Of a stretch of DNA of 64,000 nucleotides, positions 49,197 to 64,000 are shown piece after piece (position 1 is the first letter of the stretch; every line of letters begins with the position of its first letter). The notes beneath the pieces were generated by a model. It was not told the origin of the DNA and made no database searches. It saw only the letters and a program-made list of their open reading frames with translations. The stretch lies in assembly GCA_023954475.1 (NCBI GenBank), contig JAMLHW010000002.1, forward strand, positions 186,001 to 250,000, read 5' to 3'. Made by a program: the position numbers and the translations under genes. Origin of the DNA: Anaerolineae bacterium. GTDB taxonomy: Bacteria > Chloroflexota > Anaerolineae > Promineifilales > Promineifilaceae.

Positions 49197-50258
49197 ATGG
49201 ATTCTCGCGAGACCGCCCTGATAGCGCACGACGACTGGTATGCCATTGTCGATCTGGTCACACAAAGCGTGGACAGCCCACACAGCAAACGTGCCTACAG
49301 CCGTGCCTTGCTCGATTTCCTCGAATGGTACGACGATAACGACAGACCGGGTTTTTCCAAAGCCACGGTCAATGCGTATCGGGAGGCATTGCTGCAAGCG
49401 GGAAAAAGTCGCAGCAGCATCAATCAGGCGCTTTCTGCTATACGAAAACTGGCGGCAGAAGCAGCGGATAACGGCTTTGTGCCGCCACAACAAGCGTACG
49501 GTGTCGAACGCATCAAAGGCGTCCGGCAATCCGGTATCCGCGCTGGAAACTGGCTGTCGCAGGCGGATGCAGAGAAACTCATCCAAACTCCGTTGCGTCG
49601 ACAGCAAAACGACGAAATCCCACAGACAAAGGCCATTCGTGATCGTGCTATCTTGTCCATCATGATTGGTGCCGGGCTGCGTCGCGCCGAAGTCGCCGGT
49701 CTGGAGTGGCAGCAAATTCAACAACGCGATGGCCGCTGGGCAATCATCGATTTGGTCGGCAAGGGTAACCGCGTTCGCTCTGTTGGCCTTGCGCCCTGGG
49801 TCAAAGTCGCAATTGACCGATGGGCAACCACATGCGGCTTGAATTCTGGTCGCGTGTTCCGCGCGCTGAATAAGGACGGCAATCTGGCCGGTGAAGTCAA
49901 AACAAAAAGCGGCAGCACGGCAGACGGCAACATGACGCCCCAGGCCATTTACAATGTCGTGCGCGAACATGTCATTGCTGCCGGATTTGTCACCTATGAC
50001 GGTGAAGCCGCGCTGGCAGCCCACGATTTGCGACGCACCGCTGCCGCGCTTGCACTCAAAGGGGGTGCCGACTTGCGCCAGATTCAGCAAATGCTCGGAC
50101 ACGCCAGCATCACGACGACGGAGAAATACCTCGAGCCGTTGCGCAGTTTGCAGGTTACAGCCGGTGATTTTATTCAAATTGAGTTAGCCGTGCCGGGCGT
50201 GTCGGCCGACCTGATCGACCAACTCCCCCACCCTGCCGGCATTGTATCAGCCCCATGA
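49197..50258 (+). CDS. Tyrosine recombinase / phage-type integrase
   Basis: 353 residues. The N-terminal SAM-like core-binding domain (SPHSKRAYSRALLDFLEWYD and SSINQALSAIRKLAAEA) is followed by a catalytic domain with Arg (GAGLRRAEVAGLEW), His-x-x-Arg (AAHDLRRTAAALAL), His (MLGHASITTTEKYLEPL) and the nucleophile Tyr in the same block. XerC/D-like size but with a long insertion around KTKSGSTADG. The gene is preceded by a 36-bp inverted repeat. It is not flanked by a tRNA or other mobile-element genes. The stop overlaps the following dehydrogenase ATG (ATGA). Confidence 0.88.
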   Translation: MDSRETALIAHDDWYAIVDLVTQSVDSPHSKRAYSRALLDFLEWYDDNDRPGFSKATVNAYREALLQAGKSRSSINQALSAIRKLAAEAADNGFVPPQQAYGVERIKGVRQSGIRAGNWLSQADAEKLIQTPLRRQQNDEIPQTKAIRDRAILSIMIGAGLRRAEVAGLEWQQIQQRDGRWAIIDLVGKGNRVRSVGLAPWVKVAIDRWATTCGLNSGRVFRALNKDGNLAGEVKTKSGSTADGNMTPQAIYNVVREHVIAAGFVTYDGEAALAAHDLRRTAAALALKGGADLRQIQQMLGHASITTTEKYLEPLRSLQVTAGDFIQIELAVPGVSADLIDQLPHPAGIVSAP

Positions 50259-51250
50259 ATGAAAACAGCTTGCGCGTGCGCATTACGTATACCTATGATG
50301 AGGCCATTCAGGACCTGCTCGCCGCACAACTCGACGCCCGCATTGTTGTGACATATGGCGAGGACGTAGACGCTTCGGCCGATTATCATATTCTCATCAC
50401 CGGTCGGCCGACGGAAGACCAGCTTACGGCCAGTCCTCATTTGCGCACGCTGATCATACCGTGGGCAGGCTTGCCGGAGCGCACGCGCCAGACAATGCGA
50501 CGTTTCCCACGCATTGCGGTTCACAATTTGCACCACAATGCTGCGCCGGTGGCTGAGTACGCCATTGCGCTCCTGCTGACGGCGGCAAAGGAGATTGTGC
50601 CGCCTGATCGCGAACTGCGTCGCAATGACTGGACACCGCGCTATCGGCCGAATCGAGTAGTCATGCTTACCGGTAAAACCGCACTCGTGCTTGGATACGG
50701 CCATATCGGCCAACGCGTAGCCGCCCTGTGTCGTGGTTTGGGGATGCAGGTCGTGGCAACACGGCGTTCAGCCACAGATGAAACTGACGACGGCACGGCG
50801 GTTGTGTATCCGGCTGCGGCGCTGACCACCCTGCTCCCACGCGCTGACGCTGTGCTTGTCTGTCTGCCACATACGGAAGAAAGTGACGGGCTGCTCGGTA
50901 CCGACGAATTGGCACTGCTGCCACGGGGCGCAATTCTGGTCAATATTGGACGTGGCGCAGTTGCTGACGAAGCAGCATTGTTTGCCGCACTGAAGAATAA
51001 CGCCCTGCACGCTGCCGGGCTGGATGTCTGGTACAACTACCCGGACGACCGCGAAAGTCGCACAGACACAGCGCCATCAAGTTATCCATTTTACGAACTG
51101 GACAATGTCGTGATGAGTCCACATCGTGCCGGGTCGTTATGGCAAGGCGAAATGGACAAATTACGGATGACACACCTGGCACGTTTACTGAATGCAGCGG
51201 CCGCCAATCGGCCGATGCCCAATCGCGTTGATTTGGATCGCGGCTACTAA
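50255..51250 (+). CDS. D-isomer specific 2-hydroxyacid dehydrogenase family protein
   Basis: 331 residues. TGKTALVLGYGHIGQRVAAL is the NAD-binding motif, VNIGRGAVADEAALFAAL supplies the catalytic Arg, and SPHRAGS the catalytic His. The usual Glu of the catalytic triad is not obvious: DVWYNYPDDRES replaces the common DVFxxEP block. It reduces 2-oxoacids or oxidises 2-hydroxyacids. Translational coupling to a recombinase is odd; the pair may be an accidental junction that has been kept. A bidirectional terminator follows. Confidence 0.85.
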   Translation: MNENSLRVRITYTYDEAIQDLLAAQLDARIVVTYGEDVDASADYHILITGRPTEDQLTASPHLRTLIIPWAGLPERTRQTMRRFPRIAVHNLHHNAAPVAEYAIALLLTAAKEIVPPDRELRRNDWTPRYRPNRVVMLTGKTALVLGYGHIGQRVAALCRGLGMQVVATRRSATDETDDGTAVVYPAAALTTLLPRADAVLVCLPHTEESDGLLGTDELALLPRGAILVNIGRGAVADEAALFAALKNNALHAAGLDVWYNYPDDRESRTDTAPSSYPFYELDNVVMSPHRAGSLWQGEMDKLRMTHLARLLNAAAANRPMPNRVDLDRGY

Positions 51251-51301: not shown

Positions 51302-54300
51302 CTACTGCAGACGACGGCGGAACCAGACGCTGCCGGCTGTCAGCGCCAGCAGCAGCAACAATATTGGCTGCCACATTGCGGTCGCTTGCGTGCTTTCACT
51401 ATGACGCCATTTCACTGCCGTCGGCGAAATGCCAAGTGAATAATCTTCGACTTCGCCCGCGTTTGCGCCGTCGACCGGCTGTGCCTCTGAGAAACGTGCC
51501 GGTTGTACTTCGTAGAGGCGGCACCGGACGCCCAATGTCGTGTTTGACCCACCACCGACCGGCGATGCGGGCACCACAACCGGAATCGTGTTGAGACCTG
51601 CTGCGACTGCTTGGTCAATGCTGCGCTCGTCGACGCCGTCGCTGTTCGAGCTTTCAAATGCCTGGCTCATATCCCAGTCGAACCAACACGCCAACCAACC
51701 GTCTGCGCTTGCTTCGGCCGATACAGTGATGGTCTGGCCCGTTTGCCAGATGCCGTTAAATGTCACACCATCACTGCTCATGATGTCCGACGTATCGGCA
51801 TCGGCGTTCCATTCTGTCCCCAGGCGCAGTGCGCCACCCCCGTAATGCCACGCTGTGCCGAAACTGGCCGGTAAAGCGCTCTGGTCGGGCGCGGCAAAGC
51901 GCACGCGCACAGGATCGTGATCTGATTGGCGTTCACTGGCAGGGAAATCGGCGTGAACGTGGACAACGCCAAATGCATGTTCCCACAGGTTGTCGCCGGT
52001 CGGAGCCGGCGTCGCCAGATCAGTCGTCAGATAGATGTAGTCGAGTGTCTCGCTTTGTCCGCCGAAGATGTAACTGTAGCGAGCATCGGCCGATAAGTCG
52101 TCGTAGAGGTTGGCGCTGTCAGGCGAATTGTCCAGAATGGTTATCGGCGATGAGCCGAGTACATCATTGAAGTCGCCGATGCCGGCGGCAAACTCGCCGT
52201 TGGTCTGGTGGTGAGCCAGAATGTCGCGCAAATCGGCCGCTTCCTTTTCGCGCACGTCCGTACAGTCAGGCAGTGAACACGATGCAGAGCTGCGCTTTGA
52301 TTTCATGTGTAGCGCATAGATGGTGAGGTCGGTTTCAAACGCTGTGGCAGCATGGAAACGGAAATCGGCCGAAGCGGGTACACGGACGAAATCCAACATG
52401 CCGTCCAGCACCCAGGTCGTATATGGCGCACCGGCGACTGCCGTCGGTCCGCTGAGCAGGGTCACATCATCGCGATAAAGAAAACCCTGGCTGATGTCGC
52501 GACTATCGCCCGATTCGACATAGATCGCTGTCCAACTGTGACCGGCGGCTGCCGCTGTCGCAGCCGCTGCCAGCGCATCGTAAACCGCTTGCTTGCCTTC
52601 TACTTCCTGCAAGCCAATGACCATACAGGACTGCATGTCATTGACAATTACATCAGCCAATCCGTCCAGTTTGGCGGTGTATGCCGCCAGACCCGCCGCC
52701 GTTCCCGGCGTCGGCCAGCCAGGCGCCCAATCGCCCCAATCTCCTTGTCCGTCATCCAGATGATCAAACAGATTCTCGACGTTAAACGAACAGACATCAA
52801 ACTCCTGCGCTGCTGCGTTGAGTGCTGGCGTATTAGAGACCACATCCGGGTTGTCAACCGTAGTCAAAACAGGCGTCGTTTCCGGCAGCAACGTATATTT
52901 GTCGAAGTTGTACGCAAAAACACCAATGATGTCGGTTCCGGCAATTTCATCGCCAAAGTCAAGGTCAGGCAGATCGACGTTCAATCCACCGCTGAGGTAG
53001 CTGATACCTTGATAGCCCGGATAATCACTCTCCATGACTCGGCTGTAGTCCGGGATGGTGCTGCCAAAATCGACAAATGCAATTTCGGGATCGCCCGGTG
53101 CAAAGCGCGAAACAAACTGGCGCGTCGGCCCAACTACCCAACCGTCAAAGCTCATCGCTGCCCGCATCGACTCATACTGCTCGTACTGGGAAATGGGATC
53201 CGCATTTGGATCGGTAACTGGCGCAATGGTTACCGGTGAGGGCAGCCCTGCCCCACCGCAGTCCGTTGCTGCATTCGTCACAATGACGGTATTGGGGAAT
53301 TGGTATTCAGTGATGTTGAAAAACTCGATGATCTGCCCGGAGACGGTCACGAGATTGCCGGTTTCCAGCCCTTCCGAGTTGGTCCAACTGCCACCGCGAT
53401 AAACAAATAAGCCATCGGAAGTCGCCGTGTTGCCGTCACCGGCTACATCCTGAAAGTAGAATCCATTCGCCGCGATGCCGATGATGCAACCAGGCACGGG
53501 AGGTGTAGTCTGGTTTTCACAAGGTGACACGTCGGTTGTGCCCTGAATTTCGGGGATGGTCGTGCAGCTTACTGCGCTGCCGCAATCGTTGTCTGCACCG
53601 GGTGTGGGCGTAGATTGGGTGTATGCTATTGTGTTGCGTGCGCCACCGGAGCCGTTGGGACACCGTCCATTTGATTCCGTATCGCTGTTGTTATTGGCGT
53701 CTTCGTTGATCTGCGGCTGACCGGCATTGAGCAGTACGAGCAAGCCAGTATCATCGCCGTCATCCGTATCGTAGACGAGCGCGTCGATCAAGTCGCTCGT
53801 TGTAACGGCAGTACCATTTGGGAAATCGGCGGCGTCGGCTTGATAAAGCGCCACAGCGTCGGCACCGTTTTGCAGCAAGTTGCCAGCGAACGTGATATCA
53901 GGAGTCGGTGAGACGCCTGCGTTACCCAACAGAAAATAGCCGCTGCCGTTTGTAGCGTAGCCGTCGAGGTCAAATGCAGCGTATGAAGTGTCACCACTGC
54001 CATTGAAGAAGACGATGACCAAACCATCAAGCGCTGTATTGCCAGCGCCGCCATCGTACAGTTCCACAAATTCGGCAGCATCAGTGCCCGGCGTGTCGGC
54101 ATCGACTTCATTGATGATCATTGGGCTACTTATTGGCGCAGATTCAGTTGTGAAGCTCCAGATGTAGTCGGTGACCATGTTATCGGCCGAACCGTCCTGA
54201 TCGACAACATTGGCAGCATAGATCGTGACCGTACATGTTTCACTGAAGACAAAATCTGTGTCGGGATCGAGCGTGTATGTCTGCGGCCCACCCGATTGCG

Positions 54301-55117
54301 CAGCGGTGTGTGTGCCGCTGGCGCTGCACGAAATGTCATACCAACTACCGGTGACTGTTACGTCTTCGCTGAATGTGATCTCAATATCGGCCGAGATCGC
54401 AACATCAGTAGCACCGTTGTCCGGAGACGTGCTTGCAACCGTGGGCGGCACATCGGCCATCCCACATGCATGCGTCGGTGAAGACGTATTGCGCGGATTT
54501 GGTGCCCCGGTCGCGAAATCATTGGCATTGTCATCTGTATCTGTGCAGCCGTCATCGGCACGAAGAGCCGCTGTTGTGTTAGTCAATGTCGGGGTTGCGC
54601 CGCTGCCCTCATAGCAGTTCGCACTGCCGTATCCCACGAAGTCGACAAGTGCACCACCGCTTGGGCACGAGCCGCTTAGCGCCGTTGTGCTGCTGACCAG
54701 AGCCACCTTGCCACTAGCGCCCGACATAGCAATTGTGCCAATCACATCCGGCGTCGGCAGAGCGGTTGTGCCGCCTGATCCAGCCGCTTCCTGGATTAAA
54801 AAGTATTGACCGGGACCAATCGAGCCACTGAGCACAGTTGCTGACCAGGATGTGCCGGAAGAAGACGCGTACTGAACCGAATAGCCGGTGAGTGAAATCG
54901 ACGTGGTTCCGGCATTGAACAGTTCGATGAAGTCATGTGTGTAAGTTGCGCCTGAGTTACCGCCACCACCGTATACCTGGCTGATGCGCAGATCAGAGAC
55001 TAGAGGCGCAGCATCGACAGCGTGGCGTTCATTGCCAGCGAGGGTGATCAATGTCAGCAGAATGGCAAATACAGTTAACAGCTTGAGAACGAGGCGCGTT
55101 GTGGCAAAGTGAAGCAT
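51302..55117 (-). CDS. Large secreted nuclease-like protein (ExeM/NucH type) with lamin-tail and Ig-like domains
   Basis: 1271 residues from ATG 55117, with a signal peptide. Residues about 35-190 are a lamin-tail domain (ISQVYGGGGNSGATYTHDF, then EAAGSGGTTALPTPDV). A bacterial Ig-like domain follows (PPTVASTSPDNGATDVAISA), then a second lamin-tail domain (MIINEVDADTPGTDAAEFVE). An OB-fold-like region precedes the endonuclease/exonuclease/phosphatase domain: DVCSFNVENLFDHLDDGQGD, VIGLQEVEGKQAVYDALA, ALHMKSKRSS, GIGDFNDVLGSSPI and QSDHDPVRVRF hold the metal and catalytic residues. A C-terminal helix with RRR tail anchors it. It probably degrades extracellular DNA or nucleotides. Confidence 0.85.
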   Translation of the reverse strand: MLHFATTRLVLKLLTVFAILLTLITLAGNERHAVDAAPLVSDLRISQVYGGGGNSGATYTHDFIELFNAGTTSISLTGYSVQYASSSGTSWSATVLSGSIGPGQYFLIQEAAGSGGTTALPTPDVIGTIAMSGASGKVALVSSTTALSGSCPSGGALVDFVGYGSANCYEGSGATPTLTNTTAALRADDGCTDTDDNANDFATGAPNPRNTSSPTHACGMADVPPTVASTSPDNGATDVAISADIEITFSEDVTVTGSWYDISCSASGTHTAAQSGGPQTYTLDPDTDFVFSETCTVTIYAANVVDQDGSADNMVTDYIWSFTTESAPISSPMIINEVDADTPGTDAAEFVELYDGGAGNTALDGLVIVFFNGSGDTSYAAFDLDGYATNGSGYFLLGNAGVSPTPDITFAGNLLQNGADAVALYQADAADFPNGTAVTTSDLIDALVYDTDDGDDTGLLVLLNAGQPQINEDANNNSDTESNGRCPNGSGGARNTIAYTQSTPTPGADNDCGSAVSCTTIPEIQGTTDVSPCENQTTPPVPGCIIGIAANGFYFQDVAGDGNTATSDGLFVYRGGSWTNSEGLETGNLVTVSGQIIEFFNITEYQFPNTVIVTNAATDCGGAGLPSPVTIAPVTDPNADPISQYEQYESMRAAMSFDGWVVGPTRQFVSRFAPGDPEIAFVDFGSTIPDYSRVMESDYPGYQGISYLSGGLNVDLPDLDFGDEIAGTDIIGVFAYNFDKYTLLPETTPVLTTVDNPDVVSNTPALNAAAQEFDVCSFNVENLFDHLDDGQGDWGDWAPGWPTPGTAAGLAAYTAKLDGLADVIVNDMQSCMVIGLQEVEGKQAVYDALAAAATAAAAGHSWTAIYVESGDSRDISQGFLYRDDVTLLSGPTAVAGAPYTTWVLDGMLDFVRVPASADFRFHAATAFETDLTIYALHMKSKRSSASCSLPDCTDVREKEAADLRDILAHHQTNGEFAAGIGDFNDVLGSSPITILDNSPDSANLYDDLSADARYSYIFGGQSETLDYIYLTTDLATPAPTGDNLWEHAFGVVHVHADFPASERQSDHDPVRVRFAAPDQSALPASFGTAWHYGGGALRLGTEWNADADTSDIMSSDGVTFNGIWQTGQTITVSAEASADGWLACWFDWDMSQAFESSNSDGVDERSIDQAVAAGLNTIPVVVPASPVGGGSNTTLGVRCRLYEVQPARFSEAQPVDGANAGEVEDYSLGISPTAVKWRHSESTQATAMWQPILLLLLALTAGSVWFRRRLQ

Positions 55118-55417
55118 ATGATTTCCCCAAAATTGATGATAGTTGGATGGGTTCGGCCGAAAATAGCCCATTTATTCCCACCATCCGTAAATAAAGCGTG
55201 AACACGCCAGATCTTAACATTCAACGGATACAAATACGATTAAAAATCGGTTCGGATTCGGCCGAATTTGGCATTGCAAGTCAACTGTAAACCGCAATCT
55301 CATGACAAATGTCACTGGTTCGATCAAAAATAATCTGATAAGCTTGCGAACACAAGGTCAAAACAGCAAAGTCTGGCTGGACTCGGGGAGCCTCCAGCCC
55401 GAACATCGGAGCAAACT

Positions 55418-56692
55418 ATGCGCCATGTCAGCCGGACACTCATCATATTATTCCTTGCCGTCATCGCGTTGAGCGTTGCCGCTTGCACTGCCCAGGAAGG
55501 GCCAGTCGGCCCTGAAGGATCCGCTGGCCCCCAAGGCCCTCCCGGTGCACAAGGCACACAAGGCGAACGTGGCCCAGCCGGAGCGCCGGGCGCCGATGGC
55601 TTGAGTTTCATGCCTGCCGAATTTATCGGTAGCGAAGCGTGCGCAGAATGTCATCAGGACATTTACGACGTATTTGCGCGCAGCGGTCATCCTTGGAAAC
55701 TCAACAAAGTCGTTGACGGCAATCCACCTGATTACCCTTTCTCCAACGTGCCGCGTCCGCCTGACGGCTATACATGGGACGACATTGCCTACGTCATTGG
55801 TGGCTACAATTGGAAAGCGCGTTTCATCGATCACGAAGGCTTTATCATCACCGGCGATGAAGATGGAACGACACAATACAATCTGCGCAATGACGAAATA
55901 GACCTCGGCAACGATTGGGTCGCCTATCACGCCGGCGAAGAAAAACCGTATGATTGCGGAAGTTGTCACACAACCGGCTACGTTGCTGAAGGAAATCAGG
56001 ACGGATTACCGGGATTAGTTGGCACATGGGCTCTTGACGGCATTCAATGTGAAGAATGTCATGGCCCAGGTAGCAACCACGCAAGTTATCCGCTTTCTTT
56101 CCAACCTGTGATGGATCGCGATTCTGAAGCGTGTGGCGATTGTCACGTACGCGGCGGGTCTGAAGAAGTAAACGCAAGTGACGGATTCATACAGCATCAC
56201 GAGCAGTATGAAGAATTATTCCAGAGCAAACACATCACCATTGATTGTGTTGTCTGTCACGATCCGCACACAGGCGTTGTGCAATTGCGACAAGATGGCG
56301 TACAAACGACACGTACACAATGCGAAAACTGCCACTTTGATCAAGCATCTAATGCCGGTAACGAAACGCATGAATCAGTTGCCATTGACTGTATTGATTG
56401 CCATATGCCGCGTGTCACTAAAAGCGCTGTCGGTGATGTGGAGCGTTTCACTGGCGATTTGCGCACCCATTTGATGGCTATTGATCCACAACAAATCGGA
56501 CAATTCTCGGAAGACGGCACCGTGGCCTTGTCACAACTTTCGCTCGATTTTGCTTGTCGCGGCTGTCACAATCCAGACGGTAGAGGCCGGATAAAAACGG
56601 ACGAGGAGTTGATAACAGCTGCGGCCGGCTATCACGATCCCGTCATGTCGCCGGTCGTGGAAGATCAGGAGGTATCCGAGGACGGATCGTAG
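55418..56692 (+). CDS. Octaheme cytochrome c lipoprotein with a collagen-like stalk
   Basis: 424 residues. Signal peptide with lipobox Cys23 (ALSVAAC). Residues 28-61 are a run of Gly-X-Y triplets (GPPGAQGTQGERGPAGAPG). Eight CxxCH haem motifs follow: CAECH, CGSCH, CEECH, CGDCH, CVVCH, CENCH, CIDCH and CRGCH. The collagen-like run may act as a rigid spacer from the membrane or form a trimer. GGAG stands six bases before the ATG. The haem-rich body would be periplasmic or extracellular. It starts a plus-strand set with a 14-heme protein, a cytochrome b and a 10-heme protein. Confidence 0.85.
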   Translation: MRHVSRTLIILFLAVIALSVAACTAQEGPVGPEGSAGPQGPPGAQGTQGERGPAGAPGADGLSFMPAEFIGSEACAECHQDIYDVFARSGHPWKLNKVVDGNPPDYPFSNVPRPPDGYTWDDIAYVIGGYNWKARFIDHEGFIITGDEDGTTQYNLRNDEIDLGNDWVAYHAGEEKPYDCGSCHTTGYVAEGNQDGLPGLVGTWALDGIQCEECHGPGSNHASYPLSFQPVMDRDSEACGDCHVRGGSEEVNASDGFIQHHEQYEELFQSKHITIDCVVCHDPHTGVVQLRQDGVQTTRTQCENCHFDQASNAGNETHESVAIDCIDCHMPRVTKSAVGDVERFTGDLRTHLMAIDPQQIGQFSEDGTVALSQLSLDFACRGCHNPDGRGRIKTDEELITAAAGYHDPVMSPVVEDQEVSEDGS

Positions 56693-56819
56693 CACATTGC
56701 GCAATCATTTCGCGGAACAACAGCTCATGCAACTAAGCATTACTCCTAAATCTGTCACCGCATCCTCACGAGCCATGAACTTTTCATGTGCTCTCCTATG
56801 CCACAGGTAGCCTGCGTCC

Positions 56820-58427
56820 ATGATACGTTTACAACGGGTTTTACTCTTGTTGGCTGCCGTGTTTGCTTTGGTTGGCGTCGTGCTATTGCTGTGGCACGTG
56901 CCGGTCGTCGGCGCGGGTACACCGATGCTGCAATCGGCCGAAAATCCTGGCCAAACACCGGCCGATCTCGGCTGTCGTCTCTGTCACAGTGATACAGACG
57001 CTGAACTGACTTTTCCGTCGGGTGAAACGCTGCCGGTTCAAGTAGATATGACTGTATTGGCACAATCGGCACACGGCCATTCGGCCGAAACTCCACTGCA
57101 ATGCCAGGATTGTCATCGGCCGATTAATGATTACCAGGTGCCACATGCACCGGTATCGGCCGAAAGCATTCGTGACTACACACTACAACGCTCAGTGACA
57201 TGTGAAAACTGTCACGTTGAACCACATATCACCAACCATCCCGGCCCCGATGACCCCGACACACCTGTCGGATGCACCGACTGTCATGGCTCACACGATG
57301 TCCTCACCGTCGAACAACTGCGCAACGGTGACGGCACAACCAATTGTGTGACTTGCCACGAAGCCGTTGATGTCACCAGCCATACCGAAACCGAATTGAC
57401 GCAGGTGATCCGCACCGGGCTGTTTACCAATTCACTGACCGACGGCTACTGCCTCGCCTGTCATCGCTTGCCCGATCGCGAGCTTGAATTCGCCAACGGC
57501 GATACCGTTTCAACTACGATTGACGGCCTCGCTCTGCGCCAATCCGTACACGGCGATACCAACCCTACAGGTCAAATACGCTGCGTCGAATGTCATGGCC
57601 GCTACGAGTTCCCTCATCCTGAAGTTATCGTCGAAAGTGCCCGAGAATATACCCATACGCGCAATGAAGTGTGTGCCGAATGTCACCAGGATCAATTCAA
57701 CGAAACACTCGACAGCGTGCATGCAATAGCACTCGAAGACGGCGATCTTGAAGCCGCAGTGTGCACTGATTGCCACGGCGCACACGACACGACGCATCCT
57801 GATGAACCAATCCAGCAATCATCGCTGATGTGCCGCGAATGCCACACAGAAATATTCGACCAATACGCCGAGAGTATTCACGGTGAGGCGTTATTTGAAG
57901 AAAATAACGAAGATGTTCCCACTTGCATTCGCTGCCACGGCGTACACAATATTGATGACCCGACAACCAACCTGTTCCGGATTCAGTCTCCGCTGCTGTG
58001 TGCAGATTGCCACGCGGATACAGAATTGATGTCCAAATACGACATCTCAACTGATGTGTTCGACACATATGTGGCCGATTTTCACGGCACCACGATTACC
58101 CTGTTCGAGCACCAAGACCCGAACGTCGAATCCAACAAAGCGGTTTGCTACGATTGCCATGGCGTTCACGACATCAAGGCAGTCGATGACCCGCATGCAG
58201 GGATCAAAGACAATCTGCTTGTCACCTGCCAGAAGTGTCATCCAGATGCAACAGATAATTTCCCGGACGCATGGACAAGTCATTTCAAACCATCGCTGGA
58301 GAATAATACGATGGTCTATCTCGTCGATCTGTTTTATGCGATTGTCATTCCACTAACGGTCGTTTTCCTGACCTTCATGGTTGGCACTGACATTTATCGC
58401 AAAATTCGCACAGGAGCCAGGCGATGA
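56820..58427 (+). CDS. Membrane-anchored 14-heme cytochrome c
   Basis: 535 residues. A hydrophobic helix at residues 6-30 acts as signal anchor. Fourteen CxxCH motifs are spread evenly (CRLCH, CQDCH, CENCH, CTDCH, CVTCH, CLACH, CVECH, CAECH, CTDCH, CRECH, CIRCH, CADCH, CYDCH, CQKCH), several as paired CxDCHGxH units typical of doubled nitrite reductase/NrfB-like motifs. A second membrane helix at the C-terminus (LFYAIVIPLTVVFLTFMVG) is followed by a basic cytoplasmic tail. The stop overlaps the start of the cytochrome b gene (ATGA), so both are made together. The pair should form a quinol-to-haem electron relay. Confidence 0.88.
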   Translation: MIRLQRVLLLLAAVFALVGVVLLLWHVPVVGAGTPMLQSAENPGQTPADLGCRLCHSDTDAELTFPSGETLPVQVDMTVLAQSAHGHSAETPLQCQDCHRPINDYQVPHAPVSAESIRDYTLQRSVTCENCHVEPHITNHPGPDDPDTPVGCTDCHGSHDVLTVEQLRNGDGTTNCVTCHEAVDVTSHTETELTQVIRTGLFTNSLTDGYCLACHRLPDRELEFANGDTVSTTIDGLALRQSVHGDTNPTGQIRCVECHGRYEFPHPEVIVESAREYTHTRNEVCAECHQDQFNETLDSVHAIALEDGDLEAAVCTDCHGAHDTTHPDEPIQQSSLMCRECHTEIFDQYAESIHGEALFEENNEDVPTCIRCHGVHNIDDPTTNLFRIQSPLLCADCHADTELMSKYDISTDVFDTYVADFHGTTITLFEHQDPNVESNKAVCYDCHGVHDIKAVDDPHAGIKDNLLVTCQKCHPDATDNFPDAWTSHFKPSLENNTMVYLVDLFYAIVIPLTVVFLTFMVGTDIYRKIRTGARR

Positions 58428-59257
58428 GTCGGAGAGAAATGGAAAAGTTCCCGCGCTTCCGGCTGATGGCTCGTATTGAGCACATCATCTTGCTCGTATC
58501 TTTCACCGTGTTGCTGATCACCGGTGTACCGCAGCGTTACGCTACGTTACCTATTGCACAAGGTGCAATCGACTTCATGGGCGGTATTGAAACGGTGCGC
58601 GTCATCCATCGTGCAGCAGCTTTCTTGCTGGTGCTTGGTACTGCGTATCATTTGTTTGTATCAGCGTATCGGTGGTTTGTGCGACGTGAGCGCGTACGCA
58701 TTATGCCTGAGCGCAAAGATGTCACTGATTGGTGGCAGACAGTGCTTCACAATCTGGGCATCATCAACGAGCCGCCCAAAATGAAGAAGTTCAATTGGGG
58801 CGAAAAGTTTGAATATTGGGCCGTTGTCTGGGGTACGGCTGTCATGGTCGTAACCGGTTTCATCTTGTGGAATCCAATTTCGGCCGCACACGTTTTCCCC
58901 GGCCAGATTATCCCGATTGCCAAAACGGCACACAGTGCAGAAGCCATACTAGCCGGTTTGTCGATCATTATCTGGCATTTGTACAACGTGTTAGTCAAAC
59001 ATCGCAACTGGAGTATGTTCAGCGGCAAACTATCACGCGACATCATGGAGGAAGAGCACGCACTGGAATTGGAACGCATTGATGCGGGTGGTGAATTGTG
59101 GCCGCATGAAGGTGGCCCGATTGATCCACGACGCAAGCGTGTTTTTATTATCGTCGGCGCTTTTGCAGGCATTATTGTATTGGCAGTTTTGATTTGGGCT
59201 TTTACGTTTGAGCAAACCGCTATCACAACATTGCCGCCAATTACGCCGCTTCCTTAA
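58424..59257 (+). CDS. Cytochrome b subunit (formate dehydrogenase gamma / b561-like)
   Basis: 277 residues. Four or so membrane helices: IEHIILLVSFTVLLITGVPQ, VIHRAAAFLLVLGTAYHLFV, FEYWAVVWGTAVMVVTGFIL and AILAGLSIIIWHLYNVLVKH, plus a final helix near 245-265. His residues (IEHIILLV, VIHRAAAF, AYHLFV, KTAHSAEA and IIWHLYN) are suitable ligands for two b haems. It would take electrons from or give them to menaquinol and pass them to the 14-heme partner encoded just before. Confidence 0.86.
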   Translation: MSRREMEKFPRFRLMARIEHIILLVSFTVLLITGVPQRYATLPIAQGAIDFMGGIETVRVIHRAAAFLLVLGTAYHLFVSAYRWFVRRERVRIMPERKDVTDWWQTVLHNLGIINEPPKMKKFNWGEKFEYWAVVWGTAVMVVTGFILWNPISAAHVFPGQIIPIAKTAHSAEAILAGLSIIIWHLYNVLVKHRNWSMFSGKLSRDIMEEEHALELERIDAGGELWPHEGGPIDPRRKRVFIIVGAFAGIIVLAVLIWAFTFEQTAITTLPPITPLP

Positions 59258-59370
59258 CCTATTGATACAGTGCCGATGACTGACTGTGGAGGCAAGCTAT
59301 ATGATTTTGACTTTGTTGTAAAGACCCTTATTGAGTTTGTTTGTTGTTAAACCCTAAAAAGGAGGCTTGG

Positions 59371-61599
59371 ATGGCCCGCAAATTATCGCTTACTTTGTTG
59401 CTTGTGGGACTACTAGCGATTGCGATCGGTGTAGTTCTTAGCGGGTGTCAAAGTGAGCCGACACAAGTTGAAGTGACGCGTGAAGTGATCACTGAGGTGA
59501 CGGTAGAAGTGCCGGGACCTGAGGTGGAAGTCACGCGTGTTGTTGAAGTTATGTTGGAACCGGACGTACCGGTCATTCCATTTGAAGAACGGTGGGCAAG
59601 TTCGCCACATGCCGACGCATCGGCCGAAGCGTTTGTCCATTGGGATGAAGACGATCCGGCTGAAGTACCGACAAGCTGCGCAAAATGTCACAGTACACCC
59701 GGCTACCTCGATTTTATCGGTGCCGACGGCTCGGAAGCCGGCGTTGTTGACGCAGCCGCCCCGATCGGCACTGTCGTCACCTGTGAAGCATGTCACAACG
59801 ATGTTACAGTCGACATGACCAGCGTCACCTTCCCGTCCGGCGTTGAAGTCACAGGTTTGGAAGCTGAAGCACGGTGCATTCAGTGTCACCAGGGACGTGC
59901 CTCTACTGTCAGTGTCAATCAATCGATAGCTGACGCAGGACTGACAGAAGAGCAGTTGGATGTTGTCAGTGAAGACCTCGGTTTCACCAACATCCATTAC
60001 TACGCAGCCGCCGCAACCCAATTCGGTACAGTCACGATGGGCGGTTATGAATATGACGGCAAAGCGTATGATGCCAAATACGACCATGTTCCCGGCTACA
60101 ACACCTGCACATCTTGCCATGATTCTCACACGCTGGAGATCAAGTTTGAGGAATGCACGACATGCCATACCGATCTAAACAGTGCTGAAGATTTGGTCGA
60201 TGTCCGCATGCCCGGCTCACTCGTCGACTACGATGGTGACGGTGACATGGATGAAGGTGTTTACTACGAGATCGAAGGTATGCGCGAGGCACTCTATAGT
60301 GCCATGCAAGCGTATTCGGCCGAAGTCGCCGGTACACCGCTTGTCTATGACTCACACAGTTACCCGTACTTCTTCATCGATAGCGACGGTGACGGCGAAG
60401 TGACCGAAGGTGAAGCGGCATTTCCCAATGCATACAATGCCTGGACACCGCGCCTGGCCAAAGCTGCATACAACTACCAGGTTTCCCTCAAGGATCCTGG
60501 CAGATTTGCGCATGGTGGCAAATACATCATTCAGTTGCTGTATGATTCGCTCGAGGATCTCAACATGGCAATCTCTGAGCCAATCGATATGGCGGCAATG
60601 AGTCGTATTGACCATGGCCACTTTGCCGGTTCTGAAGAAGCATTCCGTCATTGGGATGCTGAAGGCGAGGTACCTGGCAGTTGTAGCCGTTGTCACTCCG
60701 CAGCCGGATTACCGCTCTTCATAGAAGAAGGTGTCTCCATTGCGCAGCACACATCAAACGGGCTGAATTGCACGACCTGCCACAACGATCTGACTGAGTT
60801 TACAATCTACGAGTCAACCGAAGTGCCGTTCCCCAGTGGCGCAGTACTGAGTTTTGGTGAAAACGACGTCGAAGCCAATCTCTGCATCAACTGCCATCAG
60901 GGACGCGAGTCCACAATCAGCGTCGATCAGCGTCTGGCCGGCAAGGATGACGATGTAGTTGACGAAAGCATTCGTTTCACTAACATCCATTACTTTGCTG
61001 CAGGCGCTACGCTGTTTGGCGACGAGGCCAAGGGTGCATATCAGTGGGCAGGCCAGGAATACGTCGGACGCAATGAACATGTCGGCGCGTTCAATTCCTG
61101 CACCGAATGTCATGACACCCATGCGCTTGAGGTCATTGTCGAAGAATGCTCTGACTGTCATGAAGAAGTCGAGACGAAGGCTGATCTGCAATCAATCCGC
61201 TTCTCGGATGATGACGATGCGGTTGAAATCGACTATGATGGAGATGGTGACAATGCCGAAGGTATCTATGGCGAAATCGATACGATGCGCACCGCTTTGT
61301 ATGCGGCACTGCAAGAATATGCTACCAATACAGTCGGTGCCGGCATTCTGTACGATGCGAATAGCTACCCATATTTCTTCAACGACTTGAACGGAAATGG
61401 TGAAGCAGATCCCGATGAAATAAACGGCGGTAACGGCTACTCGACATGGACGCCTAATCTGCTTCGGGCAGCATACAACTATCAGTATGCAGCAAAAGAT
61501 CCGGGTGCGTACGCACACAACGGCCCCTACGTCGTTCAGATTCTGTATGATTCAATCAATGGAGTTGGTGGTGATGTGTCAGCGATGACACGCCCATAA
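59371..61599 (+). CDS. Ten-heme cytochrome c lipoprotein with internal duplication
   Basis: 742 residues from ATG 59371 with a perfect AAGGAGG upstream. The lipobox Cys is residue 26, followed by a Val/Thr/Glu-rich linker (VEVTREVITEVTVEV). Two homologous halves each hold five CxxCH motifs (first CAKCH, CEACH, CIQCH, CTSCH, CTTCH; second CSRCH, CTTCH, CINCH, CTECH, CSDCH) and matching phrases NIHYYAAAATQFG / NIHYFAAGATLFG. Both halves carry acidic DYDGDGDMDEG-like and DSDGDGEVTEGE-like loops that would bind calcium. It belongs with the preceding cytochromes; a terminator at 61644 follows. Confidence 0.85.
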   Translation: MARKLSLTLLLVGLLAIAIGVVLSGCQSEPTQVEVTREVITEVTVEVPGPEVEVTRVVEVMLEPDVPVIPFEERWASSPHADASAEAFVHWDEDDPAEVPTSCAKCHSTPGYLDFIGADGSEAGVVDAAAPIGTVVTCEACHNDVTVDMTSVTFPSGVEVTGLEAEARCIQCHQGRASTVSVNQSIADAGLTEEQLDVVSEDLGFTNIHYYAAAATQFGTVTMGGYEYDGKAYDAKYDHVPGYNTCTSCHDSHTLEIKFEECTTCHTDLNSAEDLVDVRMPGSLVDYDGDGDMDEGVYYEIEGMREALYSAMQAYSAEVAGTPLVYDSHSYPYFFIDSDGDGEVTEGEAAFPNAYNAWTPRLAKAAYNYQVSLKDPGRFAHGGKYIIQLLYDSLEDLNMAISEPIDMAAMSRIDHGHFAGSEEAFRHWDAEGEVPGSCSRCHSAAGLPLFIEEGVSIAQHTSNGLNCTTCHNDLTEFTIYESTEVPFPSGAVLSFGENDVEANLCINCHQGRESTISVDQRLAGKDDDVVDESIRFTNIHYFAAGATLFGDEAKGAYQWAGQEYVGRNEHVGAFNSCTECHDTHALEVIVEECSDCHEEVETKADLQSIRFSDDDDAVEIDYDGDGDNAEGIYGEIDTMRTALYAALQEYATNTVGAGILYDANSYPYFFNDLNGNGEADPDEINGGNGYSTWTPNLLRAAYNYQYAAKDPGAYAHNGPYVVQILYDSINGVGGDVSAMTRP

Positions 61600-61801: not shown

Positions 61802-63883
61802 ATGAGTTGGATCACATCCTTTTTTGAACAGAATTTCATTGTCATATACTTTTTTTACGGCCTTGCTTTCTTCGGCATGGGCATTGCGATATTGCTGGAA
61901 GCACGCCGCTCGTCGGCCTTCTATTTGGCAGAAGCTGTTTTAGCGCTTGCTTTATTTGGCATCATTCACGGGCTCAATGAATGGTTTGAGATGTTCCAAC
62001 TGCTCGACCAGTCTGGTGCAACCAACATTCCAGCGTGGTTATTGTGGGAACCGATCCGCTTGCTGCACCTCGTCACATCTTTTGCACTGCTCGTCTTCTT
62101 TGGCGTGCAACTCATTTTTGCTCATCGTGACGCAGGCCAAAAATCCTGGCGCATCGCGACCATTGTAACCGCTGTTCTGACGGTATTGTGGTTCGTCACC
62201 TGGATGCTTTCGTCGGCGATGCTTGACGGCAGCTCAGCAGATCTGGCCGACGTGTTGTCGCGCTATATGTTGGCGATGCCGGGCGCGCTTCTAGTTGGCT
62301 GGGCGTTTATACTTGAACGGCGCTCTTTTCGTGCTCGTGGCATCCCGCAATTTGGCCATGCTCTGCTGATTGCAGCCATCGCTATTCTACTTTATGGTGT
62401 GGTCGGTCAGATTTTTACGCGACCCAGTGCGCTATTTCCTTCGAATGTCGTCAACAGCACCTGGTTTTTTGAAACGTTTGGTGTGCCGGTACAACTGCTT
62501 CGCACCTGTGCTGCCATACTGATGGCGTTTGCAGTCACGCGGGCATTGCGCGTGTTTGATGTGGAGAGTGCCCGCGAGCTGGCCGACGCCCGTGCGGAAA
62601 GCCTTGCAGCGCAACGGCAAACGCAGGAAGCGACTATGGCACTAAACGAAGAATTGCAGATTCTTGTCACCAGTTTGCAGTCGCTGAATGAACTGTCACG
62701 ACATTTGAGTGCGACGCTGGATCAGCAGGTCATTCTAAATGAGGTGTTTCCAGGTTTTATCGATGACGAACCGCGCATCGGTGCAGGTATGATCATGCTG
62801 AAGCAAAAGCGGGATGATTCGGCCGACATTGTTGTCAAAACCAACTGCCCCGCACCTGACCACATTCGCGTCGAGATGGAAGCCGTTGCCTTTGAACTGG
62901 GACAGCAAGTCAGCCAATCTGGACAACCAGCCTATTGGGATACGCATGCGATCCAGCCGCTGCCGGAGTCATTGCGTTCGGCCGAATTCGATCCGTGGCA
63001 ACAGCCCCAACCAGAACTGCATATCATCGGCGTGCCACTCAAAATGCACAACACCATCGCCGGTTGTCTCGTTGGTTGCACAGCACCAGGCATGGACCCG
63101 TTTTCCCGTGAAGATTATTCGCTTGTCAGTACGGCTGCACGCCAATTCAGTAGCGCTCTGCAAAACGCTCTGCTCTACGGACAAGCACAACGCCGTGACG
63201 CACTGCGCGGTGAACTGTTGCGTCAAATTGTCACCGCACAGGAAAACGAACGGCAGCGCATCGCCCGCGAACTCCACGACGGCCCCGGCCAAACATTAAC
63301 CGGCCTCGGACTTGGTCTTGCTGCTACCGAAGCACGGCTGCAAACTGATCCGGCAATTGCCGCCCAACAACTTGCCGAACTGCGTGATTTGAACGCGAGA
63401 ACCTTGCAGGAACTGCGCGACATCATCGTTGATTTACGTCCGTCTTTGCTCGACGATCTTGGACTGATCGCTGCCTTACGCAGTCAGATTCAGCAAGTTG
63501 AACAACGCACAGACACAGCAATCGCTCTTGAAATCAACGGCAATCGCCGCCGTCTTTCCCCTCAGCTTGAGACTATCGTTTTCAGAATTGTGCAGGAATC
63601 TTTGAGCAACATCGTTAAACACGCTCAGGCTGACACGGCCGGCGTAAAGCTCAGCTACTCCGATACTGCTCTGGATGTCACCATAATAGACGATGGGCAG
63701 GGCTTTGACGTTTCTGATCAGCTTGCGCCCACTGAACACAGGCGCCACGGATGGGGTTTGCTGGGTATCCAGGAACGCGTTGCATTGGCTGCAGGGTCAT
63801 GTACCATTGAATCGCATCCAGGAGATGGAACGTGTATTTTTGTCCATTTACCTCTGGACGAAACAGGTACAAATTATGTCTAA
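61802..63883 (+). CDS. Membrane histidine kinase, NarL/LuxR-type partner (HisKA_3), with GAF domain
   Basis: 693 residues. Seven or so membrane helices cover residues 12-245. A coiled linker with [15 protein letters not shown]-like composition precedes a GAF-like domain around residues 290-450. The dimerisation domain is [20 protein letters not shown] with phospho-acceptor His492. The ATP-binding domain shows [22 protein letters not shown] and [17 protein letters not shown]. Its ligand is unknown; the membrane part may sense a lipid-soluble or small signal. The stop overlaps the response regulator start by eight bases. It lies directly downstream of the cytochrome module. Confidence 0.9.
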
Positions 63884-64000
63884 GATTAGGCTGCTTCTAG
63901 CTGACGATCACGCTGTGGTACGCTCCGGCCTGCGCATGCTGCTCGATTCGCAACCTGACATGGAGATTGTCGGCGAGGCGGCGACGGGGCGCGAAGCGCT
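63876..64000 (+). CDS. Response regulator, start of gene (partial)
   Basis: The first 41 residues before the window ends. [20 protein letters not shown] with the acidic pair is the receiver domain start of NarL/FixJ-type regulators. The start overlaps the kinase gene, so the two form a cognate pair. The DNA-binding domain lies outside the window. Confidence 0.85.

Follow-up and report, generated by a model that had tools for sequence, protein, structure and literature searches.

We analysed a 64,000-nucleotide stretch of DNA, hereafter the window (G000:C12:186001-250000), from a 5.1-Mb genome that is 98% complete. The best-matching loci belong to Chloroflexota MAGs labelled Promineifilum, Ardenticatenia and Anaerolineae, and the host is placed in the class Anaerolineae, near Promineifilum. 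Four genes on the forward strand, designated A to D, encode an octahaem lipoprotein, a membrane-anchored 14-haem protein, a cytochrome b and a decahaem lipoprotein. The CXXCH counts were exact, with 8 motifs in A, 14 in B, none in C and 10 in D, confirming the sum of 32 that an earlier note on this DNA had given for a four-protein module. Shuffled proteins contained such motifs at means of at most 0.08, with a maximum of 2, and each of the other open frames of the window contained at most one. Cytochrome c maturation genes are present in the genome (PF01578, two matches).

The lipoproteins A and D

Gene A (55418-56692, + strand) was identified as an octahaem c-type lipoprotein with an OcwA/MccA-like cytochrome domain from its eight CXXCH motifs and from profile and model matches. 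The lipobox cysteine, Cys23, is followed by 12 collagen-like Gly-X-X triplets (residues ~27-62), a run that is kept in most linked A orthologues. Profile searches matched OcwA (6i5b, E 2e-24), a Carboxydothermus S-layer undecahaem protein (E 4e-14) and MccA (E 7e-12). A structural model of A ranked the same three structures, with Z scores of 14.4, 12.3 and 10.9, respectively, after which the scores dropped to 5.7. The match to OcwA extends over 282 residues of a model of medium confidence (pLDDT 67), the similarity at the sequence level being limited to the first half and covering the initial ~185 residues of the domain. For its eight haems A contains four invariant extra histidines and one invariant methionine, suggesting that some of these haems may be open. 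A His-His pair at residues 260-261 is partly conserved (19/22 and 14/22 rows).

Thermincola OcwA, whose haem core combines a c554-like and an NrfA-like part, acts as terminal reductase at the cell surface and has two open haems (PMC6703420), with His-His pockets at these sites, and OmhA of Carboxydothermus was recovered from the cell-mineral interface (PMC7829351). These best matches of A in both sequence and modelled fold are surface cytochromes of Gram-positive metal reducers that work with no porin, and a surface location is likewise expected for A. Unlike OcwA, with nine haems, and OmhA, with eleven, A has eight haems and is a lipoprotein with a collagen-like stalk. Wolinella MccA shares with A the number of eight haems and gave a fold match to its model (Z 10.9). 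The copper of MccA is bound by cysteine ligands, whereas the lipobox Cys23 is the only cysteine of A outside the haem motifs, so that MccA-like Cys-bound copper is impossible in A; all motifs of A are CXXCH, and no CXXCK was found in its sequence. An MccA-type sulfite reductase, an enzyme that carries copper at its active haem (PMC6703420), was rejected as an identity for A because the copper cysteines are lacking. Homologues 44-45% identical to A were also seen in two 1.7-Mb genomes of another class (L082 and L084, from G106 and G074), where a two-haem frame follows directly; the aligned part contains no collagen-like run, and B, C and D are absent nearby.

Gene D (59371-61599, +) encodes a decahaem lipoprotein whose lipobox cysteine is Cys26 and in which two pentahaem repeats of NrfA-like fold are arranged in tandem, as judged from its ten CXXCH motifs, the repeat, the model and the start site. 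The ATG at 59371, with AAAGGAGG just upstream, was preferred as start over the TTG at 59341. Residues ~80-395 and ~417-729 are internal duplicates of 45% identity (E 5e-96), in agreement with the duplication that the earlier note had described for its 10-haem lipoprotein. Searching by sequence alone gave no convincing PDB relative of D, NrfA included, and a Foldseek search reached E 0.01 only; the NrfA fold was revealed by VIA alignment alone. The D model (pLDDT 84) matched NrfA (1gu6) with a Z score of 12.8 and an rmsd of 4.0 over 251 residues, a range that corresponds to the first repeat, the second being taken to have the same fold from its identity to the first. The second half of OcwA, which shares this fold, was matched with Z 12.3; D differs from it as a separate tandem pentahaem duplicate.

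Although the fold of a D repeat is that of NrfA, D has CXXCH in place of CXXCK, is duplicated in tandem and is a lipoprotein. The histidines of all ten motifs are conserved in 26/26 rows, and the NrfA lysine motif is missing throughout. NrfA has a tyrosine after the haem motif that corresponds to the third motif of D, where the residues are instead QGR. Each repeat contains about six conserved extra histidines for five haems, so the haems of D may all be six-coordinate. A single-repeat form of D (~385 residues) occurs in five genomes of the class, and the example in L088 has five haem motifs.

The B-C pair

The 14-haem c-type protein B (56820-58427, +) was recognized by its 14 CXXCH motifs, its predicted helices and 14 conserved extra histidines. 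It begins with an N-terminal signal or anchor, ends with a transmembrane helix (residues 504-522) and consists of a five-haem N-terminal extension followed by a conserved nine-haem core (residues ~207-535), to which alone the nine-haem homologues of B align. A segment of the N-terminal part is duplicated within B (36% identity, E 2e-18). Exactly nine invariant non-motif histidines accompany the nine haems of the core in 20/20 orthologues, and five conserved extra histidines accompany the five haems of the extension in 10-11/11 orthologues. With a conserved extra histidine for each of the 14 haems, B reads as a bis-His wire with no obvious catalytic site. One methionine, M404, is also invariant.

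Gene C (58424-59257, +) encodes a dihaem cytochrome b of the FdnI/b561 type (PF01292, E 2e-12; FdnI 1kqf, E 2e-19) with four core helices and one C-terminal helix. It aligns lengthwise with E. coli FdnI, and H20, H62, H170 and H185 of C stand opposite H18, H57, H155 and H169 of FdnI, which we take to be the four haem-b ligands of the latter. The B and C genes overlap in an ATGA (58424-58427), which bears out the coupling of the 14-haem and b genes proposed earlier, and C lies directly after B in 72/80 loci from named genomes. On a Myxococcota contig (L130) the two homologues are fused in one frame of 1365 residues, in which 23 haem motifs precede the b domain and four follow it; this fusion supports a single complex that contains both B and C.

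Geobacter CbcL is a menaquinol oxidoreductase in which an extracytoplasmic domain with nine low-spin, bis-His c-type haems precedes a HydC/FdnI-like dihaem b domain, six helices being present in all (PMC6295460, PMC9129911). Compared with this published description, the B core and C together have the same nine c-haems with conserved partner histidines, the same number of six helices (by hydropathy, one in B and five in C) and an FdnI-like dihaem b, and CbcL is, like the module, encoded with multihaem c cytochromes. In layout, the B core and C thus look like Geobacter CbcL split in two. However, CbcL is one polypeptide whereas B and C are two overlapping genes, fused only in the Myxococcota example, and B of the module differs further by the five extra N-terminal haems found in the host family and by the invariant M404. 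No Chloroflexi homologue of CbcL appears in a published survey of quinol dehydrogenases (PMC6295460). The earlier note had recognized no standard named complex in these genes. This stands with regard to a nitrite-reductase set, the kind of known complex against which that note had weighed its reading: a genome search found no canonical NrfA, and the want of CXXCK in A likewise led us to reject this identification. It does not stand for the b and c pair, in which the CbcL layout can be recognized. An outer-membrane cytochrome of the MtrC/OmcA type was rejected for B, as the MtrC/MtrF domain match was partial and fell on a CXXCH-rich stretch, and the core fits the CbcL layout better.

A quick tree of C grouped the 14-haem forms into a single starred clade with nine rows, one of which belongs to a B truncated by its contig end, and placed the 15-haem forms (Caldilineaceae and one relative) elsewhere. 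The haem extension of B may, from these sequences, have had one or several origins. Further haem additions were observed among relatives. Many C homologues (such as L039:8695-9873) have a C-terminal extension of PSCyt1 type with one haem, homologous to the C-terminal part of a seven-haem neighbour (H7, see below), and one homologue (L108) contains ten haem motifs. In some relatives (L045:2792-8290 and L111), open frames with 22 and 32 haems precede B-C.

Gene neighbourhood and conservation

Downstream of D, the window contains a gene for a membrane histidine kinase (61802-63883, +) with about 6 helices and HisKA_3 and HATPase domains, as assigned by domain and helix predictions, and the start of a NarL-type response regulator gene (63880-64000, +) that continues past the window (L006:3880-4536). 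Homologues of the kinase recur near the module in many relatives. On the opposite strand, ~1-4 kb past the window end, lie genes for NrfD, an FeS protein with a Tat signal and an octahaem protein that has a helix at its C-terminus. The same genome holds a second octahaem-FeS-NrfD cluster (L068:8679-11770, +; G000:C1, ~304-310 kb), near which an 11-haem protein is encoded on the opposite strand (L068:5840-7057, -).

The comparison of gene order that the earlier note had proposed was carried out, and the order A-B-C-D was kept in the two other genomes of the same family, followed in both by octahaem-FeS-NrfD. The four genes were also found in this order at three further loci (L097, L098 and L100) and at L099, where a match to C was obtained without a frame of its own being called; L096 has B-C-D. 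In other members of the class, the B protein generally carries nine haems, and the genes are often arranged as D-B-C-H7 facing NrfD-FeS-octahaem. H7, a frequent neighbour of the b gene in other families, has seven haems, one helix and a NapC/NirT-type start, the build of ImcH, itself with seven haems and a NapC/NirT-like N-terminus; an ImcH homologue with one helix has been listed for Anaerolinea thermophila (PMC6295460). A search of the present genome for H7, run without a positive control, was empty. The unit is larger and more variable than the four proteins of the earlier note, as octahaem-FeS-NrfD and the two-component system recur beside it and H7 joins it elsewhere.

In a sample of 400 genomes of the phylum, C was matched in 32 and D in 28. 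The two-repeat form of D occurred in 23 genomes, 19 of which also had C; in 17 of these 19, D and C were at most 12 kb apart on one contig, and in the other 2 they were on different contigs of draft genomes. A was found near B-C in 15/80 loci, most B-C relatives having no A nearby, and in one relative (L080) an A of 62% identity lies apart from the module, which indicates that A is a separable part. Among cultured relatives, D-B-C occurs in Bellilinea caldifistulae and B-C in Anaerolinea thermolimosa. D-B-C was also seen on a contig labelled Acidimicrobiia (L153), with a D 58% identical, pointing to transfer or mis-binning.

Proposed electron path and alternatives

Omp85 was not found in a search of the genome whose controls gave a positive signal in 7/14, as expected for a monoderm host. 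This suggests that a lipoprotein faces the outside and that the wall, with no outer membrane around it, is probably all that has to be crossed. A porin-cytochrome conduit of the Mtr/Pcc type was rejected on the same result and because no porin-like gene was noticed beside the module. Within the phylum, Ardenticatena maritima respires with electrodes and Fe(III) and shows surface haem (PMC5808234). It is a monoderm with surface haem and electrode activity, but the reported ARMA_0580 has seven haems and the module is not described there.

We read the haem counts, gene coupling, homologies, conserved ligands and gene neighbourhood observed here as those of what is probably a respiratory electron-transfer chain of monoderm Chloroflexota, leading at or beyond the cell surface from menaquinol through B-C and then D and A to an outside acceptor. 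We infer the menaquinol donor, the outward direction, the sequence of transfer (B, then D, then A) and the type of acceptor from these comparisons. Menaquinol would be oxidized in the membrane by C, and its electrons would pass through the two haems b to the adjoining, anchored B. The bis-His haem chain of B would lead them away from the membrane, its extra five-haem segment making a longer wire, and D and A, lipid-anchored outside, would take them up. A, on its collagen-like stalk, would be the likely terminal reductase, acting like OcwA on minerals, humics, shuttles or partner cells, and the stalk and haem chains together could span the cell wall. By analogy with FdnI, outward flow would conserve little energy if the quinone site is cytoplasmic. 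The menaquinol-linked path to an extracytoplasmic acceptor proposed in the earlier note is thus still the best reading, given an FdnI-like C, a wire-like B and lipoproteins of the OcwA/NrfA superfamily; what had to be corrected is that the module was called a four-protein one and unrecognized. Two COX1 genes in the genome make oxygen respiration probable, in which case the module is not necessarily a main respiratory route.

The nearest competitor, which we consider unlikely, is a quinol-linked reductase for a soluble N or S oxyanion (nitrite, hydroxylamine, sulfite or tetrathionate), in which A, D or both would be the enzyme, comparable to the Mcc sulfite system of Wolinella or to an Nrf system. 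The MccA-like match of A, the NrfA-like fold of D and the FeS-NrfD pair nearby are consistent with it, as are the sites that may be open in an A with four invariant extra histidines for eight haems. OcwA itself reduces nitrite and hydroxylamine slowly (PMC6703420), which leaves a soluble substrate conceivable for A. Nevertheless, A has neither a cysteine beyond the haem motifs and lipobox nor a CXXCK, the D motifs are all CXXCH with QGR after the third, no canonical NrfA was found in the genome, and the 14-haem wire of B exceeds the need of a soluble acceptor.

We regard as improbable an inward flow, in which an extracellular donor such as Fe(II), a cathode or partner cells would feed A and D, then B, and C would reduce menaquinone with oxygen as the final acceptor. 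FdnI, the closest solved relative of C, works in the quinone-reducing direction and the genome encodes COX1; Ardenticatena, moreover, gives cathodic as well as anodic current (PMC5808234). However, the parallels CbcL, OcwA and OmhA have been studied as outward routes (PMC9129911, PMC6703420, PMC7829351), and a dedicated iron oxidase was not noticed among the genes around the module. That the cytochromes serve chiefly as an electron store or buffer or in protection against oxidants, with no dedicated acceptor, would suit many haems in an oxygen-respiring genome but is highly improbable, as the conserved coupling to a quinol-type cytochrome b and the conserved OcwA/NrfA folds point to directed transfer.

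Returning to the outward chain, we tentatively extend it to an electron-export system of Anaerolineae that would combine a split, haem-extended quinol dehydrogenase of the CbcL type with a stalked OcwA-type octahaem and a tandem NrfA-fold decahaem protein. With a quinol dehydrogenase of the NrfD type and, in other families, one of the ImcH type in its neighbourhood, one locus could perhaps cover several acceptor potentials. Anaerolineae are common in sediments, digesters and sludge and on anodes, and the outward electron route of single-membrane Chloroflexota is poorly known. The module supplies specific, named proteins for testing, parts of which are carried by cultured relatives, and it joins two separate lines, quinol oxidation of the CbcL type from Gram-negatives and surface reductases of the OcwA type from Gram-positives. 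Large multihaem proteins were noted previously in Anaerolineales (PMC7399161), so the cytochrome wealth of the class is not itself new. In the open-access literature we found no description of the A-B-C-D gene set in Chloroflexota. Its parts belong to known families or folds; we saw no account of their combination, of a split CbcL-like pair with additional haems, of an octahaem protein on a collagen-like stalk or of a decahaem protein built from tandem NrfA-fold repeats.

Upstream of A, a divergent gene (51302-55171, -) encodes a surface protein of 1289 residues with lamin-tail, Big_5, endonuclease/phosphatase and GEVED domains and a hydrophobic C-terminus. Beyond it, at 49197-51250, a tyrosine recombinase gene overlaps by a few bases with that of a D-2-hydroxyacid dehydrogenase, an odd coupling.
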